This document shows positions 29,066-40,239 of a stretch of 64,000 nt of DNA, piece after piece. The DNA is from Flavobacteriaceae bacterium (GTDB lineage Bacteria > Bacteroidota > Bacteroidia > Flavobacteriales > Flavobacteriaceae): assembly GCA_029238125.1 (NCBI GenBank), contig JAQWGQ010000019.1, forward strand, positions 1 to 64,000, in the 5' to 3' direction. How positions within the stretch are numbered: the stretch's first letter is position 1; each line of letters begins with the position of its first letter. Both the position numbers and the translations under genes were made by a program. The notes beneath the pieces are model-generated. The model was given only the letters and a program-made list of their open reading frames with translations, made no database searches and was not told the DNA's origin.

Positions 29066-29419
29066 CTAGCGAGAGGCGGTACGCTCAGAAGTGTTCCAAT
29101 AAATGACGTCTTGCACCTTGTTGTTGGTAAACTCAACTTCAATCAATTGCTCGTCGGTCCAAAAAAACCATGTACCAGCTTTGACACCATTGTCATAGTT
29201 TCCGACAGCGATTTTGTTACCCTCTGCATCAAAAGATTCCCAAACGCCATCGAGCTTGTTACGGTGAATATGCCCGTGTTGGGCAATTTCTCCATTGTCG
29301 TGAAACTGGGTGAATTTCATCACTTGAGGAGAGGTCGTGCGCTCGACTTTTGTGGTTTGACCATACGAAAATGTAAAGCCGAAAACGAATACAAAAATTA
29401 AAATCATCTGTGCTTTCAT
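29066..29419 (-). CDS. Secreted MORN/YwqK-like repeat protein
   Basis: 117 aa from ATG 29419. The frame opens at 29449, but a promoter box (CAAAGGTA, 29447-29454, read TACCTTTG on the minus strand) covers that start. Signal peptide ends FGFTFSYGQ. Two to three MORN-like repeats follow: FHDNGEIAQHGHIHRNKLDG, VWESFDAEGNKIAVGNYDNG, VKAGTWFFWTDEQ. Such proteins are widespread in Bacteroidota and uncharacterised; the antitoxin label sometimes used is not supported here, as no toxin gene is adjacent. Confidence 0.75.
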   Translation of the reverse strand: MKAQMILIFVFVFGFTFSYGQTTKVERTTSPQVMKFTQFHDNGEIAQHGHIHRNKLDGVWESFDAEGNKIAVGNYDNGVKAGTWFFWTDEQLIEVEFTNNKVQDVIYWNTSERTASR

Positions 29420-29472
29420 ACCTCTTGTCTTTAGGAATTGATTATTCAAAGGTACTAAAAATTTACATTCTC

Positions 29473-29503
29473 ATAACATTAAATTAACATTAATGTCTTA
29501 ACA
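29473..29503. promoter_or_regulatory. TTAACA hexamer cluster between the MORN gene and aspS
   Basis: ATAACA 29473, TTAACA 29484 and TTAACA 29498, offsets 11 and 14. It resembles the phased arrays near 33.6 and 36.6 kb and overlaps the -33 region of the minus-strand MORN promoter. Confidence 0.3.
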
Positions 29504-29588: not shown

Positions 29589-31337
29589 ATGCACAGGAGT
29601 CACACATGCGGCGCATTGCGCCAATCCGATGTAAACAATGACGTTCAACTCGCTGGGTGGGTACAGCGTATCCGCGACAAGGGCTTTGTACTTTGGATTG
29701 ATCTCCGTGACCGTTATGGCGTAACCCAACTGGTACTCGATGAAGAGCGGTGTGATCCCGCCCTTATCTCACAAGCCAAGACGCTAGGCAGAGAATTTGT
29801 TATCCAAGTACGTGGTCTTGTGATTGAAAGAGAAGCTAAGAATTCTGCGATACCGACTGGGGATATAGAGGTTTTGGTCAAGGAGCTCAACATCCTTAAT
29901 CCTTCCGAAATTCCGCCTTTCACTTTGGAAGATGAAACCGATGGAGGCGATGACCTCCGCATGAAATATCGGTATCTGGATATCCGCCGCAACCCGATCA
30001 AAGACAAACTTTTGTTTCGCAACAAGGTGGCGCAAATGATTCGCAGCTATTTATCGTCTCAAGACTTTGCAGAAGTCGAAACTCCTTACCTCATCAAATC
30101 AACTCCAGAAGGAGCACGTGATTTTGTCGTGCCGTCTCGTATGAATCCAGGTCAGTTTTATGCCCTGCCACAGTCCCCACAAACTTTTAAGCAATTGTTG
30201 ATGGTTGGCGGTATGGATCGCTACTATCAGATTGTGAAATGTTTTCGAGATGAGGATCTCCGTGCCGATCGCCAACCTGAGTTTACACAAATCGACTGCG
30301 AAATGGCTTTTGTGGAGCAAGACGATATTTTAGCCGTTTTTGAAGGGCTTTTACAACAGTTATTACAAGACGTTCACGGAATTACCCCCACTGCTTTCCC
30401 AAGGATTACCTACGCTGACGCCATCGCAACTTATGGATCGGACAAGCCAGATATTCGATTTGGAATGCGCCTCGCTGGGCTCAATTCGCTTGCGCAAGGC
30501 AAGGGCTTTCAAGTCTTTGACCAGCAAGAATGGGTTGGTGGTTTTGCTGTTGACGGAGGTGCTGAAATGAGTCGGAAAGAAATCGACAGTTGGATTGACT
30601 GGGTCAAGCGACCCCAAATTGGTGCCAAAGGAATGGTTTGGGTCAAGTGCAATGCGGATGGGACTTATAAATCGTCCGTTGATAAATTTTACAGTCAAGA
30701 GGATTTGGCTGCATGGGCATCTACTTGCCAAGCCAAAGCAGGGGATATTATCTTCGTTCTCTCCGGTGGAAAAACACAGACACACACACAGCTGGGCGAA
30801 CTCCGTCTTGCGGTGGCAGAAAAGATGGGTCTTCGAGACCCAAAGGTTTTCGCACCACTTTGGGTGATTGATTTTCCGCTGTTTGAACAAGTGGAAGGCG
30901 ATGATCACTTTCATGCCATGCACCACCCCTTTACAGCGCCAAAACCAGAGCAAGTCGCACAACTCGATAGCTCCCCGGAGTCCGTATTTGCCAATGCCTA
31001 TGACTTGGTGCTGAATGGCAATGAAATCGGGGGTGGATCGATTCGTATTCACGATCGTGAAACCCAAGAAAAAATGTTTTCCCTTCTCGGTTTTAGCAAA
31101 CTAGATGCCAAAGCGCAATTTGGATTTTTGATGGATGCATTCCGCTATGGTGCCCCACCACATGGTGGAATTGCTCTAGGATTTGATCGGCTTGTCGCTG
31201 TATTGGACGGTCAAGAGTCCATCCGTGACTATATTGCTTTTCCAAAAAACAACAGTGGAAGAGATGTGATGATCGATGCACCAGCCCCTTTGGATGACGA
31301 TCAACTCGATGAACTTTCTCTACAATCCAAGGCATGA
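29589..31337 (+). CDS. aspS: Aspartyl-tRNA synthetase
   Basis: 582 aa, the bacterial type. Anticodon-binding OB domain ([20 protein letters not shown]), class II motif 2 [20 protein letters not shown], the bacterial GAD insertion domain (residues ~290-410), and motif 3 [20 protein letters not shown]. It charges tRNA-Asp; no asnA-independent evidence on discrimination is visible. The stop overlaps the next small gene by 4 nt. Confidence 0.96.
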
Positions 31338-33643: not shown

Positions 33644-33677
33644 TTAATCCTTAGTTAACAATAATTTAAATTTAATC
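33644..33677 (+). promoter_or_regulatory. 11-bp-phased TTAAnn array upstream of the TonB receptor (Pho-box-like)
   Basis: TTAATC 33644, TTAACA 33655, TTAAAT 33666 at exact 11-bp steps, plus TTAATC 33672. Direct TTAACA-like hexamers spaced 11 bp are how PhoP/PhoB-type regulators recognise DNA. Confidence 0.4.
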
Positions 33678-33727
33678 TCCATTTATTTAGTGTCAAAATA
33701 ACTCTATTTGCGGCATAAATTTTATAG

Positions 33728-36538
33728 ATGAAAAATAGTCTTTTAATTTTAAGTCTAGCCCTATCCAATCTACTTTTTGCTCAACCCGTTGGCTCTATAG
33801 TTGGGACGGTGCTTGACAAAGATCTAAACAACGAGCCTCTTCCATTTGCAAACATACTAATCCCTGAGGTGAATGTGGGCACAACTTCTGATTTTGATGG
33901 CTTGTTTGCGTTTGATGCTTTAGCAGAAGGGGAATATCTTGTACATTTTAGTTTTGTCGGGTATGAAACCCAAAAGGTCCCCGCCGCAGTTGTTGGTGGA
34001 AAAGTAACCGAAATTCAAGTGTCATTGGCAAGTTCTTCATCAGCACTTGACGAAGTCATCGTCACAACCGTTGCTCGACGTGATTCACAAACCGCTTTGC
34101 TTATCGAACAAAAAAAAGCAGTGAATTTCAAGCAACAAATCGGTGCTGAAGAGCTCACACAAAAGGGGATTGGAGATGCAGCTGATGCCGTGATCAAAAC
34201 CTCGGGAGTCTCGAAAGCCGAATCTGGCTCTATTTATGTAAGAGGACTTGGTGATCGATACAATATGTCGTCTTACAATGGCTTTGTACTGCCTTCCAAT
34301 GATCCATCATTAAAAAATATTGCACTGGACTTGTTTCGCTCTGATATCGTCGAGTCGATCGCGATTGACAAAACTTATAATGTTGACAATTTTGGTGATT
34401 ATGCTGGCGCCAGTATCAACATCAACGCCCTGACTAGCAAATCCAAAAACTACTACAAGCTGAGCATAGGAAGTGGGTTTAACCAATCTGCATTTGATGT
34501 GGACAGCTTTTATCTAGGTCAAGGACCAGGGTATTCTGGTTTTTACAACAACTCCTATCCCAACTACCCACTTGAAAGATATAACTTCGATACAGGATTC
34601 AACCGCGAGCAGGCCTTCGGTGGGGTATCCCCAACCAATATCAGTGGTGCTTTTGAGGCGAGTTATGGAAGACTATTGACTGATATTACGAGGGTGAATC
34701 TCTTTGCTACGGCAAGTTTTGACAACGACTTCAGCTATACAAGTGGGGTAAACCGAGGGAGTATCAGCAAGGACGGTTTGATTTACAAAAATTTCGATTT
34801 TACCACCTACCAATATGACACCAATACTACGGCCATGTTGAATTTAGCGGTGCTAAACCCTTCTTTTTCGGTTACGTTTTCAAATCTGCTTATCAATTCA
34901 TCATCACAAAATCTGCAGGAATACAATGGGGTGATGGATATTTTTGATTTTGCTCCTGAGGGGGGTGGATTTATTCAACGTCACCAATACAAACAAACAC
35001 TTTTGTTGGTCAATCAGGTTTTTGGGCAAGTTGAGGTTCTTGACAAGCTCTCACTTATTGGCGGTGCTTCCTACAGCCAATCTTTAAACTTGATCCCCGA
35101 CCGTCGTCAAATCACCTTATCCCCATCCGATTGGGATAAACCAAATAGTCCAAAGACGTTTGCCAACAACCTGAGTAATGGAGACTCACACCGATATTAT
35201 CAAAATCTTTTTGAAGATGAATTGGGCTATCGCGCCAAGTTGGTCTATGATTTTCAGAACCGAGAAGAAGAAGAAAATAATACCAAGCTCAGTTTGGGTT
35301 TTGTCGGGCGTAAAAAAACAGTGGACTTTGATGCCACACAAATCAATCATGCCCCACGTAGAAATATTGCCCAACCCACTATTGATGATGTGTACGATAC
35401 CGACAGCTATTTTAATCAGGGCAACCTCAGCCAAGGTTTGTTTGAGCTCATCACCTTCCGAGGAAGAAAAGATGTTCCCAATGCACTCGCTCCCCAAACC
35501 TATGGAGGAGAGCAAAATATCACTGCGGGATATATAAGTGCGGATCACAATTTTTCAGAGTCCACCAAAGTACAAGTTGGTCTTCGATATGAAAACATCA
35601 AGCAAAGCATTTCATGGTCAACAACCCTCGACCCAACAGGAGACACCTCTGTGCTTGATGACGTGCAATGGCTACCCTCCTTGTTTGTCCTTCACAAGCT
35701 AAATGATACCAACAATATCAGATTTGCTGCGAGTTCGACATATACCCTTCCACAATACAAGGAAAAGGCATTTTTTCAGTTTGAGGAAGTCACTGAAGTT
35801 TATCTAGGTAACCCTGCCTTATACGCTTCTACAAACTATAACTTTGACCTCAAGTGGGAACAGTTTCCCAGTATCGGGGAATTGGTTTCGGTCACCGCTT
35901 TCAGCCGCATCATCAAAAACCCAATTAATGATGTTTCGATTAGTTCGGCAAGTAACGACCTGAGCTATGTCAACAGTGGGGATCAGGCAACCGTTTTTGG
36001 ACTTGAGTTTGAATTGGTTAAAGACCTTTACAGCAATCCAATCGTATTGGATGATCGAACACTTAATCGTGTTTTCCGTCTGAATCTGAACGCGTCTTAT
36101 ATGCAATCTAAACAAGACCTTGACGGCGAAAAAGTACTGAACGAAACTGCCGCATCTGGCCTGCTCAATCTCAGTGTTGACTTTACCAATACGGAAGATC
36201 GCATCACAGGGGCTTCTGATGTTCTACTCAATGCAGATTTTCTTTATGAGCGAGATTTTAGAAATGGAGCGAGCTTGGTGTCATCCCTTTCTGCCAATTA
36301 TTTTTCTGATAAACTCTATGCCTTAGGTGTACTTGGCAAAGGAAATATTGTAGACAAAGGCCTTGTTACGCTCAATTTTGTGAGCAAGCTTCAGCTCAAT
36401 GAACTTGTGGGCTTGAGCGTGAGTGCCAAAAATCTGTTAAACCCGAGTTATCAAAGAATTCAGGATATACAGAACGTAACCGTTTTGGAATTTAAAAAAG
36501 GGCGGAGTTTATCCTTGGGGGTCAACTTAACATTCTAA
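33728..36538 (+). CDS. TonB-dependent receptor with carboxypeptidase-regulatory-like domain
   Basis: 936 aa. Signal peptide to LFAQ. Residues ~22-110 form the CarboxypepD_reg-like sandwich (GTVLDKDLNNEPLPFANILI). Plug segments follow (VINTGxxD-type RDSQTALLIEQKKAVNFKQ; SIYVRGLGDRYNMSSYNGFV). The 22-strand barrel ends in an aromatic residue (LSLGVNLTF). It imports a substrate across the outer membrane using TonB energy. Phased TTAAnn repeats upstream, and the lipoprotein and PiT transporter downstream, suggest phosphate or a phosphorylated compound (inference). Confidence 0.9.
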   Translation: MKNSLLILSLALSNLLFAQPVGSIVGTVLDKDLNNEPLPFANILIPEVNVGTTSDFDGLFAFDALAEGEYLVHFSFVGYETQKVPAAVVGGKVTEIQVSLASSSSALDEVIVTTVARRDSQTALLIEQKKAVNFKQQIGAEELTQKGIGDAADAVIKTSGVSKAESGSIYVRGLGDRYNMSSYNGFVLPSNDPSLKNIALDLFRSDIVESIAIDKTYNVDNFGDYAGASININALTSKSKNYYKLSIGSGFNQSAFDVDSFYLGQGPGYSGFYNNSYPNYPLERYNFDTGFNREQAFGGVSPTNISGAFEASYGRLLTDITRVNLFATASFDNDFSYTSGVNRGSISKDGLIYKNFDFTTYQYDTNTTAMLNLAVLNPSFSVTFSNLLINSSSQNLQEYNGVMDIFDFAPEGGGFIQRHQYKQTLLLVNQVFGQVEVLDKLSLIGGASYSQSLNLIPDRRQITLSPSDWDKPNSPKTFANNLSNGDSHRYYQNLFEDELGYRAKLVYDFQNREEEENNTKLSLGFVGRKKTVDFDATQINHAPRRNIAQPTIDDVYDTDSYFNQGNLSQGLFELITFRGRKDVPNALAPQTYGGEQNITAGYISADHNFSESTKVQVGLRYENIKQSISWSTTLDPTGDTSVLDDVQWLPSLFVLHKLNDTNNIRFAASSTYTLPQYKEKAFFQFEEVTEVYLGNPALYASTNYNFDLKWEQFPSIGELVSVTAFSRIIKNPINDVSISSASNDLSYVNSGDQATVFGLEFELVKDLYSNPIVLDDRTLNRVFRLNLNASYMQSKQDLDGEKVLNETAASGLLNLSVDFTNTEDRITGASDVLLNADFLYERDFRNGASLVSSLSANYFSDKLYALGVLGKGNIVDKGLVTLNFVSKLQLNELVGLSVSAKNLLNPSYQRIQDIQNVTVLEFKKGRSLSLGVNLTF

Positions 36539-36559: not shown

Positions 36560-36619
36560 TTAACATTACGCTACCTTAAATTAACGCTTCATTAACATTT
36601 TGACTGATTCAAATTAACA
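36560..36619 (+). promoter_or_regulatory. Phased TTAACA array upstream of the beta-helix lipoprotein (Pho-box-like)
   Basis: TTAACA 36560, TTAACG 36581, TTAACA 36592, TTAACA 36614: offsets 21, 11 and 22, all close to multiples of 11. The last hexamer lies 20 bp before the -7 box, in place of a -33 element. Confidence 0.5.
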
Positions 36620-36639
36620 TTTCCATTGGCTCTTCATCC

Positions 36640-36647
36640 TATGTTTG
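36640..36647 (+). promoter_or_regulatory. -7 box of the beta-helix lipoprotein gene
   Basis: TATGTTTG fits TAnnTTTG. No -33 consensus at the right distance; instead the final TTAACA occupies that place, as in an activator-dependent promoter. Confidence 0.5.
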
Positions 36648-36664
36648 TAACAAATAATATCGAT

Positions 36665-37837
36665 ATGAAAACGAACGTTACTTTTTTTACTTTTATACTT
36701 TCTGGCTTTTTGTTTGTCTCTTGTTTGAATAACGATACAGACGTTGCAACATGCTCAGATGGCATTCAAAACGGAACGGAAACAGGTGTCGACTGTGGAG
36801 GAGATTGCCTACCTTGTGCAGATCTTTCTGTGCTTTCAGGTGACCTTACAAGCAACCTCACACTAGATGCCTCTGTTGAATATTCACTTATTGGTGCATT
36901 GGTTGTCAAAGCACCTGCCGAATTGACGATCCCGCGAGGTACAACCATCAAAGCAACTGGTGGTACTTCTGCCTATATTGCTGTAGAACAAGGAGCTAAA
37001 ATATTTGTTGATGGATCTGCAGATTCTCCTGTGGTGATGACTTCTGGCTCTGACGATCCACAAGCTGGAGACTGGGGTGGTCTGGTGATCGCAGGTAAAG
37101 CACCCACAAACAAAGGGGCGTCTCCAACCACTGAAGTTGGTGACCTCACTTATGGTGGAACGACTTCTGACGATAGCTCTGGGTCAATTCGCTACTTACG
37201 TGTCGAATATACTGGTGCAACATTTACCAACGAAAAAGAATTCAATGGCGTATCTCTATTTGGGGTTGGTTCTGGTACCACCTTTGAGTATGTACAGGCT
37301 TATGAAGCAGGGGATGATGGAATCGAGTTTTTTGGAGGAACAGTTGATGGATCAAACCTCGTTGTTACTAGCTCTGGAGACGATGGCATCGACTATGCTG
37401 ATGGCTGGAATGGAGACGGAACCAACTGGTATATCAGTGGTGCTGCCAAAGGGGCAATCGAAGGGTCAAACAATGGAGACGATTCAAATGCAATCCCCAC
37501 AACAACAACAACCCTAACAAATATCACGGTTGTAGGTCCGGTTAGCGAAGGTGCGCTATACTACAAAGAAGGTGGTGGGAATGTTACGGTTGTCAATATG
37601 TTTGTTGAAGGTGTAGACCTTGGCGTGAAGTACAAAACATCGGATTCAGCTGCATTATCCAGAATCGCAAATGGTGATTTGACTGTCGATATACAGTTTG
37701 CTAATAGCGCAACTGGCTTTGAGTACACGTCAGAAAACGCAAATTCAGCGCCTTCCTGGATGAAAATAGGAACCGACAATACTGGCGCTGGCAATGGTGC
37801 GAGCAAGCCAGATTGGACAAACGGATGGACAAAATAA
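36665..37837 (+). CDS. Right-handed beta-helix-type lipoprotein
   Basis: 390 aa from ATG 36665; the frame from 36626 starts upstream of the -7 box. Lipoprotein signal KTNVTFFTFILSGFLFVSC, then a Cys-rich linker CSDGIQNGTETGVDCGGDC familiar from flavobacterial surface lipoproteins. The rest is a Gly/Asn/Thr-rich solenoid with short beta repeats (DWGGLVIAGKAPTNKGA, GDDGIEFFGGTVDGSNLVVT, GDDGIDYADGWNGDG). Probably a surface partner of the TonB receptor encoded upstream. Confidence 0.75.
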   Translation: MKTNVTFFTFILSGFLFVSCLNNDTDVATCSDGIQNGTETGVDCGGDCLPCADLSVLSGDLTSNLTLDASVEYSLIGALVVKAPAELTIPRGTTIKATGGTSAYIAVEQGAKIFVDGSADSPVVMTSGSDDPQAGDWGGLVIAGKAPTNKGASPTTEVGDLTYGGTTSDDSSGSIRYLRVEYTGATFTNEKEFNGVSLFGVGSGTTFEYVQAYEAGDDGIEFFGGTVDGSNLVVTSSGDDGIDYADGWNGDGTNWYISGAAKGAIEGSNNGDDSNAIPTTTTTLTNITVVGPVSEGALYYKEGGGNVTVVNMFVEGVDLGVKYKTSDSAALSRIANGDLTVDIQFANSATGFEYTSENANSAPSWMKIGTDNTGAGNGASKPDWTNGWTK

Positions 37838-37867
37838 GTTCGATGATTAATTTTGGTTATATGTTCT

Positions 37868-37905
37868 AAAATATCCCCCCTCTTTTGGGGGGGTATTTTA
37901 TTTTA
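37868..37905 (+). terminator. Strong terminator after the lipoprotein gene
   Basis: AAATATCCCCCC pairs with GGGGGGGTATTT around TCTTTT, followed by T-rich sequence. It separates the lipoprotein gene from the PiT gene transcriptionally. Confidence 0.85.
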
Positions 37906-37947
37906 CATTTACTTGTACATCGACTAAATATTTAGCATTTTTAAACG

Positions 37948-40239
37948 ATGGAAAACATCTACCTATTCATGCTCGTTGCCTTGGCTGTTTTGGCGTTGGC
38001 TGACCTGATTGTTGGTGTGAGCAATGATGCGGTAAACTTCCTCAATTCTGCGATTGGGTCCAAGGCCCTTAGTTTTCGCGTGATTATGATTGTCGCCAGT
38101 GCTGGTGTCGCAGCAGGAGCCATTTTCTCCAGTGGTCTGATGGAAGTTGCCCGCAAAGGCATCTTTAATCCCGAAATGTTTGTCTTTTCCGAAATCATGG
38201 TGATTTTTATTGCTGTGATGATTACCGACATCCTGCTGTTGGACTTTTTCAACACTCTTGGTTTACCCACCTCTACAACGGTATCGATTGTTTTTGAACT
38301 TCTTGGAGCTGCCGTTGCCATGGCCTTATTGAAAATCTACACTGGAGATGCCACCGAAGAGCTCATCGCCTTTATCAATGTCGCCAAAGCAACACAAATT
38401 GTACTTGGTATTTTCTTATCGATTGTATTTTCCTTTTCCATTGGTGCTATTGTACAATACATTTCCCGTCTCTTTTTGAGCTTTCACTATCAAGAAAAAC
38501 CCAAATGGATGAGCGCATTATTTGGTGGTATGGCCCTGACCGCCATTACCTATTTTATCATCATTAAGGGAATAAAAGGTACCCCTTATGCTGGCGAAAC
38601 ACTTCCTCTTCTCGGCGGCATGACCCTTGGTGAATTTGCCGAAACCGAACTAATCACTGTGTCTTCACTCGGGCTTGTGTTTTGGACTTTGATCAGTATG
38701 ATCTGGGTTCGTTTTTGGGATATCTACAAAATGATCATTGCTGTTGGAACTTTTTCACTCGCCCTCGCTTTTGCGGGCAACGACTTGGTCAACTTTATCG
38801 GCGTTCCCATTGCCGCTTGGCAATCCTATCAGTCGTGGTTGACTTCGGGCATAGACCCAGAACTATTCTCCATGGGGGGCTTGGCTGCAAAAGTCGCTAC
38901 ACCAACTATCTTTTTGTTCGCCGCTGGTCTGGTCATGGTCGTTACCTTATGGACCTCCACCAAAGCCAAGAAAGTCGTCAAAACAACCATTGACCTTTCC
39001 CGACAAGACAAAACCGAAGAACGCTTTGAACCCAATGCCTTATCACGTGGAATGGTCAATGTTTTTGTCAACACAACTGCCGTTATCAATCGACTGATTC
39101 CCAAACCAATTCAAAATCTGATTACCAAACAATTTACCCAACCAACACTCGAAGAAGCAGTTATCAAAAAAGGGGATTTGCCCGCCTTCGATAACGTTCG
39201 TGCATCGATCAACCTCACCGTAGCTGCTGTCTTGATTTCTATCGCTACCTCTTACAAGCTCCCGCTTTCAACGACCTATGTGACCTTTATGGTTGCCATG
39301 GGGACATCCCTTGCCGATCGGGCTTGGGGCAGCGATAGTGCTGTCTATCGTGTAGCTGGGGTGATCAATGTCGTTGGAGGTTGGTTTTTGACTGCCTTCA
39401 TCGCATTCACTGCTTGTGCCTTGCTCGTTACCTTTATCTATTTCGCCAAGCTGGTTGCGATTATTATTTTGCTGATTTTCTCCGCAATCATTCTCTACCA
39501 AAACTACATCCGATCTCAAATAGAAAGTAAAACCCTCAAGGAAGAAGATGAACTTTATATGTCCGAAGCGGGGTCAGTGCAAGGACTCATTGCAGAAAGT
39601 GCCTATAATGTTTCCCGTATGGTTCGCCGCGCCAATGAAATCTATAAAAATACCATACATGGCCTTGCCACTGAAAATATTGACACCCTGAAAAAAAATA
39701 AACGAAGTGTTAAAAAACTCGAAAATGAAATCAGTACCCTTCGCGATGAGCTCTACTACTTTATCAAAGAACTCGACGAAGACAGTGTAAAAGCCAGTAA
39801 GTTTTTTATCGGGCTAATCGATTGTTTGGAAGACATGTGTCAATCGCTTGAGCTCCTCAATAAAAAGTGTCAAAAACACGTCAGTAACAAACATAAAAAA
39901 ATCAAATACACCCAAATCAAAGCCCTTAAAACCATCGAAAATGAGTTGGAAGATTTGTTTTCTGAAATTCGATTTACATTTGACCTCAATGACTTTGATC
40001 AGATCAAAATCATTCTTCCAAAAAAGGAAATTTTGTTCCAATCGATTAACAGCCGAATTCAAGACCAAGTTAGTCGTACGCGAACCGAAGAATCAAGCCC
40101 CAAAAACACCACGCTTTTCTTTGGTGTTTTATCTGAAACCAAAGACCTGATCGCCGCAACAATGAACTTGATCGAGCTTTACTATATCGAGTATGACAGC
40201 GATATTGACCCCTTGATTAAAAAGAGTTCAGAGTCCTAA
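37948..40239 (+). CDS. PiT-family inorganic phosphate transporter with C-terminal PhoU-like domain
   Basis: 763 aa. Two PHO4 repeats: LIVGVSNDAVNFLNSAIGSK at the start, and FDNVRASINLTVAAVLISIA ... KLPLSTTYVTFMVAMGTSLA in the second half, with about ten TMs. After the last TM (~residue 525) comes a ~230-residue charged helical domain (NVSRMVRRANEIYKNTIHGL) resembling PhoU-like regulators. Imports phosphate with H+ or Na+. The fused PhoU-like part suggests flux control in cis. Confidence 0.9.
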   Translation: MENIYLFMLVALAVLALADLIVGVSNDAVNFLNSAIGSKALSFRVIMIVASAGVAAGAIFSSGLMEVARKGIFNPEMFVFSEIMVIFIAVMITDILLLDFFNTLGLPTSTTVSIVFELLGAAVAMALLKIYTGDATEELIAFINVAKATQIVLGIFLSIVFSFSIGAIVQYISRLFLSFHYQEKPKWMSALFGGMALTAITYFIIIKGIKGTPYAGETLPLLGGMTLGEFAETELITVSSLGLVFWTLISMIWVRFWDIYKMIIAVGTFSLALAFAGNDLVNFIGVPIAAWQSYQSWLTSGIDPELFSMGGLAAKVATPTIFLFAAGLVMVVTLWTSTKAKKVVKTTIDLSRQDKTEERFEPNALSRGMVNVFVNTTAVINRLIPKPIQNLITKQFTQPTLEEAVIKKGDLPAFDNVRASINLTVAAVLISIATSYKLPLSTTYVTFMVAMGTSLADRAWGSDSAVYRVAGVINVVGGWFLTAFIAFTACALLVTFIYFAKLVAIIILLIFSAIILYQNYIRSQIESKTLKEEDELYMSEAGSVQGLIAESAYNVSRMVRRANEIYKNTIHGLATENIDTLKKNKRSVKKLENEISTLRDELYYFIKELDEDSVKASKFFIGLIDCLEDMCQSLELLNKKCQKHVSNKHKKIKYTQIKALKTIENELEDLFSEIRFTFDLNDFDQIKIILPKKEILFQSINSRIQDQVSRTRTEESSPKNTTLFFGVLSETKDLIAATMNLIELYYIEYDSDIDPLIKKSSES

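Follow-up and report, generated by a model that had tools for sequence, protein, structure and literature searches.

The window analysed here comprises bases 1–64,000 of contig C11 of a 1.47-Mb, 82%-complete flavobacterial genome, and coordinates refer to its forward strand unless otherwise noted. Three genes follow one another on this strand: a TonB-dependent receptor with a carboxypeptidase-regulatory-like domain (33728–36538); its partner, an outer-membrane lipoprotein (MKTNVTFFTFILSGFLFVSC; 36665–37837, ATG at 36665) predicted to form a right-handed beta-helix; and a PiT-type phosphate transporter of the PHO4 family (37948–40239). The lipoprotein has no Pfam match, and homologues are present in 133 of 149 Flavobacteriaceae. 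Its structure model is a confident right-handed beta-helix (pLDDT 87), for which the nearest solved folds are polysaccharide lyases, polygalacturonase/epimerases and tailspikes, all with weak E-values. On the basis of its lipobox, fold model and synteny, the protein is predicted to belong to the FI/FII family of F. johnsoniae (Fjoh_0546/Fjoh_3856); the F. limi homologue, which lies in the same gene order as in F. johnsoniae, is ~43% identical to it. The lipoprotein is single in the window; in several relatives, among them the sibling species G151 (locus L263), it is tandemly duplicated and reaches about 740–750 aa.

The receptor-lipoprotein pair has a recurrent setting in relatives, namely dgt / TonB receptor / lipoprotein / OprP-like porin / PiT / nrdA, and in other relatives it adjoins phoB-phoR or pstSCAB-phoU. 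Of the 80 named loci, 63 have phoB, PiT or pst genes next to the pair. Sampled genomes with a PiT match numbered 58, and by eye we counted 24 in which the lipoprotein and PiT are at most about 9 kb apart. The order porin-PhoR-PhoB-TonB receptor-FII lipoprotein is common to F. johnsoniae and F. limi/F. hibernum. In F. johnsoniae, the genes of this cluster, like those of a second receptor-lipoprotein pair, rank with the genes most strongly induced by phosphate starvation, the receptor rising ~2^8-fold and the lipoprotein ~2^10-fold upon phosphate depletion (PMC8115612).

The intergenic region upstream of the lipoprotein gene carries four directly repeated half-sites, at 36560–36565 (TTAACA), 36581–36586 (TTAACG), 36592–36597 (TTAACA) and 36614–36619 (TTAACA), followed by a -7 box, TATGTTTG, at 36640–36647, which fits the TAnnTTTG consensus. 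The half-sites are spaced by 21, 11 and 22 bp and lie 80, 59, 48 and 26 bp before the box. The initial annotation had described four TTAACA hexamers phased on one DNA face, the last of them 20 bp before a TAnnTTTG box without a -33 element. Three of the four hexamers are indeed TTAACA, the one at 36581 being TTAACG; the spacings hold, with the outermost hexamer at 80 rather than 81 bp, 1 bp off the strict register that 36581 keeps; and the core promoter is just as described, with a gap of exactly 20 bp between the last hexamer and TATGTTTG. No TTTG stands at the -33 position, where the promoter-proximal hexamer is found instead, 26–21 bp before the box. Since flavobacterial -7 boxes span -12 to -5 (PMC9723704), transcription is expected to start at ~36652, and the 36614 hexamer would then span roughly -38 to -33. 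A scan for the sigma-70 consensus gave matches at chance level.

The half-sites at 36581 and 36592 form an 11-bp pair, the minimal Pho-box unit of tandem direct repeats in 11-bp steps, and 36614 lies 22 bp further. This is the only adjacent 11-bp pair in the array; the expected positions 36571, 36603 and 36625 hold no half-site or a poor one. A fifth exact TTAACA occurs at 36527–36532, 33 bp upstream of 36560, within the final codons of the TonB-receptor gene (VNLTF and stop); coding constraint accounts for its conservation, and its role is therefore uncertain. In the sibling G151, whose lipoprotein is 85% identical, a 126-bp region aligns gap-free, so that the array and the -7 box are free of indels: the box is unchanged, 36560 is conserved, and 36581 reads TTAAAG. 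Substitutions affect 2 of 32 motif bases versus 15 of 94 others, a trend only (p = 0.14).

Words of this kind might cluster by chance in AT-rich intergenic DNA. The window as a whole has no excess of TTAACA (42 seen versus 53 expected), and the genome-wide search for TTAACA-N5 repeats that the initial annotation had proposed was uninformative in the organism's own genome, where TTAACA-N5-TTAACA with at most one mismatch occurs 10 times versus 17 for the reversed control; the register-15 pattern likewise gave nothing above its control in this genome. However, shuffling the intergenic region 20,000 times with its dinucleotides preserved never produced four or more TTAAC phased within ±1 of 11n, and a cluster of three or more exact TTAACA within 60 bp of one strand, for which shuffles predict 0.005 occurrences, is found once in the window. 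Among the 1,350 TTTG sites on both strands of the window, a single one, that of the lipoprotein promoter, is preceded by at least three NTWACR half-sites lying at 4 mod 11 from the box. Together with the recurrence of the register in other genera (below), these results strongly disfavour chance, which we regard as a most improbable origin of the array.

A model (R1) trained without this genome ranked 36573–36604 first genome-wide (E = 0.7, not significant on its own), its best match being centred on the 36592–36597 half-site, with 150 of 579 first-look candidates scored. With the filters off, an array near aspS outscores the lipoprotein array within the window (13.2 versus 11.3 bits). A triple 11-bp array, TTTACA-N5-ATAACA-N5-TTAACA, is located at 29462–29497, between a small MORN/YwqK-like gene (29066–29449, reverse strand) and an aspartyl-tRNA-synthetase-like gene (29589–31337, forward strand). 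The genome G131 (locus L240) has a similar array beside a similar small gene, and there the array is inverted relative to the gene, so that it could be a repressor site. Elsewhere (L113, L114 and L115), three TTAACA at 11-bp steps precede small secreted proteins of the MKNVIK type, with a divergent AraC-like gene adjoining.

The promoters of relatives show that the spacing of these half-sites is constrained. In 50 regions upstream of phosphate genes from other genera, NTWACR words formed 29 pairs with an 11-bp spacing, where shuffles gave 1.0, and the spacing peaked again at 22, 33 and 44 bp; the half-sites lay 15, 26, 37, 48, 59 and 70 bp from the -7 box. Measured to that box, 72 of 92 half-sites fell at 4 mod 11, compared with 7 of 28 in control regions, a control rate that is overstated because L126, one of the two controls with an 11-bp pair, is a misclassified phosphate lipoprotein. 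The 80 named loci, an independent replicate in which some genomes of the 50-region set may recur, gave 252 half-sites in phase 4 and no more than 32 in each of the other phases. The initial annotation had expected the phased motif to be enriched near phosphate genes, and in relatives this is the case. Of 153 phosphate-locus upstream regions, 72 contain an 11-bp half-site pair, against 13 of the 395 other regions (odds ratio 26, p = 2e-33); among 29 PiT promoters selected purely by PiT homology, 18 have such a pair. Among the few "other" genes with an array, several encode porin-like proteins, fragments of lipoproteins or small proteins related to the receptor N-terminal domain.

The same NTAAC-type register recurs in other genera before TonB receptor, lipoprotein, porin, PiT and pstS genes. 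These promoters are mutually non-homologous, and shared ancestry of one promoter therefore fails to explain the common register. The best matches of model R1 in complete relatives are likewise TonB-receptor, porin, PiT and pstS promoters. Orthologous lipoprotein promoters favour half-sites at 26, 37, 48, 70 and 80/81 bp, to which the window's 26, 48, 59 and 80 come close; the 26 bp of the promoter-proximal hexamer is thus a preferred distance in relatives too. A few loci in Bacteroidales fit the register (the PiT gene of L161 and the lipoprotein gene of L201), too few for a firm claim.

Two OmpR/PhoB-family regulators, and exactly two, are encoded in the organism's own genome, a PhoB-type protein on contig C21 and an RprY-like protein on C30. 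The former has receiver and winged-helix domains, its gene adjoins that of a HisKA/HATPase histidine kinase, its nearest solved structure is RegX3, and it belongs to the same family as the phoB found beside the receptor-lipoprotein pair in relatives. The presence of this regulator and kinase, together with the fixed register to the -7 box, supports the earlier view that a PhoB/PhoP-type activator works at this promoter. The register was found in 1 of 36 phoB promoters only, which does not support autoregulation of phoB through such an array.

The second regulator raises the question of whether the array might be bound by another member of the family, such as the RprY-like protein, acting through TTAACA tandems in envelope or oxidative stress. 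The "PhoP" of Riemerella anatipestifer binds the core TTTAACA and controls moxR/bat (PMC9603813), and TTAACC-N5-TTAACA lies upstream of moxR in the genome studied here. TTAACA tandems also precede genes without an obvious phosphate role, and this weighs against a phosphate function. A very strongly conserved TTAACA-[AG]CGNN-TTAACA promoter, for instance, is found in 12 genera (L103–L112, L119 and L122) before a non-phosphate lipoprotein that lacks a Pfam match and is encoded next to an ABC-F-like gene. Counting TTAACA-N5-TTAACA in relatives was accordingly rejected as a phosphate signal, since the instances that are most conserved belong to this different promoter class. The two classes are nevertheless set apart by spacing: the hexamer lies 27 bp from the -7 box in 12 of 12 members of the second class, and 26 bp in the phosphate promoters and in the window, whose array has no half-site at 37 or 38 bp and falls outside the 27-bp class. 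We take the 27-bp class as the putative class of a second regulator and the window array as probably one of the phosphate class. The locus, its synteny and the register shared by all phosphate-gene promoters also oppose control by another regulator, which we consider unlikely.

The TonB-receptor gene is preceded by a weak array at 33655–33671, conserved in the sibling, with TTAACA 48 bp and TTAAAT 37 bp before a likely -7 box (TCTATTTG, 33703–33710); this region ranks fifth in its own genome with model R1 (E = 7; 150 of 579 candidates scored). PiT is next in line after the lipoprotein gene, as the initial annotation had it, but a strong intrinsic terminator (37867–37900, -22.8 kcal/mol), whose hairpin the sibling keeps with a different sequence, separates the two genes, and PiT has its own conserved upstream region. 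The segment after the terminator includes a candidate degenerate Pho box, TTTACA-N5-TTGTAC (37902–37918), and is identical in the sibling, so PiT probably has a degenerate phosphate promoter of its own. PiT may be the only phosphate importer of this genome: neither a PstS-family protein nor pst genes were found in the 82%-complete assembly, and the usual signalling partner may therefore be missing.

These features could also be read as signs of decay, the array being a decayed or weakly used Pho operator in a streamlined genome and the lipoprotein now mostly constitutive. The degenerate arrays of the TonB-receptor and PiT genes, the pst genes not found in the incomplete assembly, and a number of adjacent half-sites smaller than in relatives would all fit such a history. 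It is opposed by the indel-free array and -7 box in a sibling species whose lipoprotein is 85% identical, and by the array still heading the genome-wide ranking of the phosphate model among the candidates scored, and we consider it very unlikely.

The array, its register to the -7 box, its conservation, the phosphate genes around it and a PhoB in the same genome are all directly observed. We propose that the array is probably a Pho box, a tandem operator for phosphate-responsive PhoB that covers the -33 region. When phosphate is scarce, phosphorylated PhoB would bind the NTAAC-type half-sites head-to-tail, in 11-bp steps and on one face of the DNA, most likely nucleating on the 36581/36592 pair. 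Cooperative filling would then reach the proximal half-site at 36614, at the would-be -33 element, where PhoB would hold the primary sigma factor at a promoter whose -7 box, TATGTTTG, is not accompanied by a -33 element. PhoB would thereby switch on the beta-helix lipoprotein, which would work with the TonB receptor encoded just upstream. Class II activation by tandem-bound PhoB is the natural reading of this promoter geometry; we infer the binding of PhoB, the direction of regulation, the sigma-factor contact, the cooperativity and the response to phosphate.

A wider generalization is more speculative, and somewhat less likely than not. A Bacteroidetes-wide code, with NTAAC every 11 bp at 15+11n bp from the -7 box of -33-less promoters, might make the flavobacterial phosphate regulon readable from DNA, while a second OmpR-family regulator would use a near-identical word in a register shifted by 1 bp, so that spacing rather than sequence would separate the two regulons. 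A family-wide positional code of the Pho-box type, as these promoters suggest it, was not found described in the literature searched. Flavobacteria play a major part in recycling organic phosphorus in the sea and in soil, and their phosphate response has already been measured; a fixed promoter code would make the phosphate regulon predictable in genomes of uncultured bacteria, the present one included, and would show how the -33 element of a Bacteroidetes promoter can be replaced by an activator.

The papers searched, among them few from subscription journals, contained no description of a Pho box in Flavobacterium or the Bacteroidetes. In E. coli promoters under PhoB control, the binding site of the activator takes the place of the upstream promoter element, as the array would do here. 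The E. coli PHO box consists of tandem direct repeats in 11-nt units (PMC4415409), an arrangement that the window array resembles in its direct repeats in 11-bp units. The two differ in the half-site, which is NTAAC(A) here and CTGTCAT in E. coli, in the Bacteroidetes -7 type TAnnTTTG, and in the 15+11n bp lock to that box. The PhoP box of Bacillus subtilis, made of TT(A/T/C)ACA repeats, has nearly the same hexamer and gaps of roughly 5 bp; it belongs to another phylum, sigma factor and promoter, whereas the register of the window array is phased to TAnnTTTG. Closer in phylogeny is Riemerella anatipestifer, which also belongs to the Flavobacteriales. The DAP-seq core of its PhoP site, TTTAACA (PMC9603813), shares the core word with the window array, and the regulator is likewise of the OmpR family and from the same order; unlike in our case, the reported targets are moxR/bat and GLPGLI genes rather than phosphate-uptake genes (PMC9603813). 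In Bacteroides fragilis, PhoB binds the pstC promoter by gel shift (PMC3547664), likewise a Bacteroidetes PhoB at a phosphate promoter, for which no binding word was found in that paper. A further close system is formed by the PUSIII/PUSIV phosphate loci of F. johnsoniae, which encode FI/FII lipoproteins together with TonB receptors (PMC8115612); the terms "Pho box" and "motif" are absent from the main text of that paper. The window differs from it in having no porin and in having PiT rather than phoBR beside the pair, and is like it in the receptor-lipoprotein pair itself and, for FII, in the phoBR neighbourhood that the pair has in relatives.
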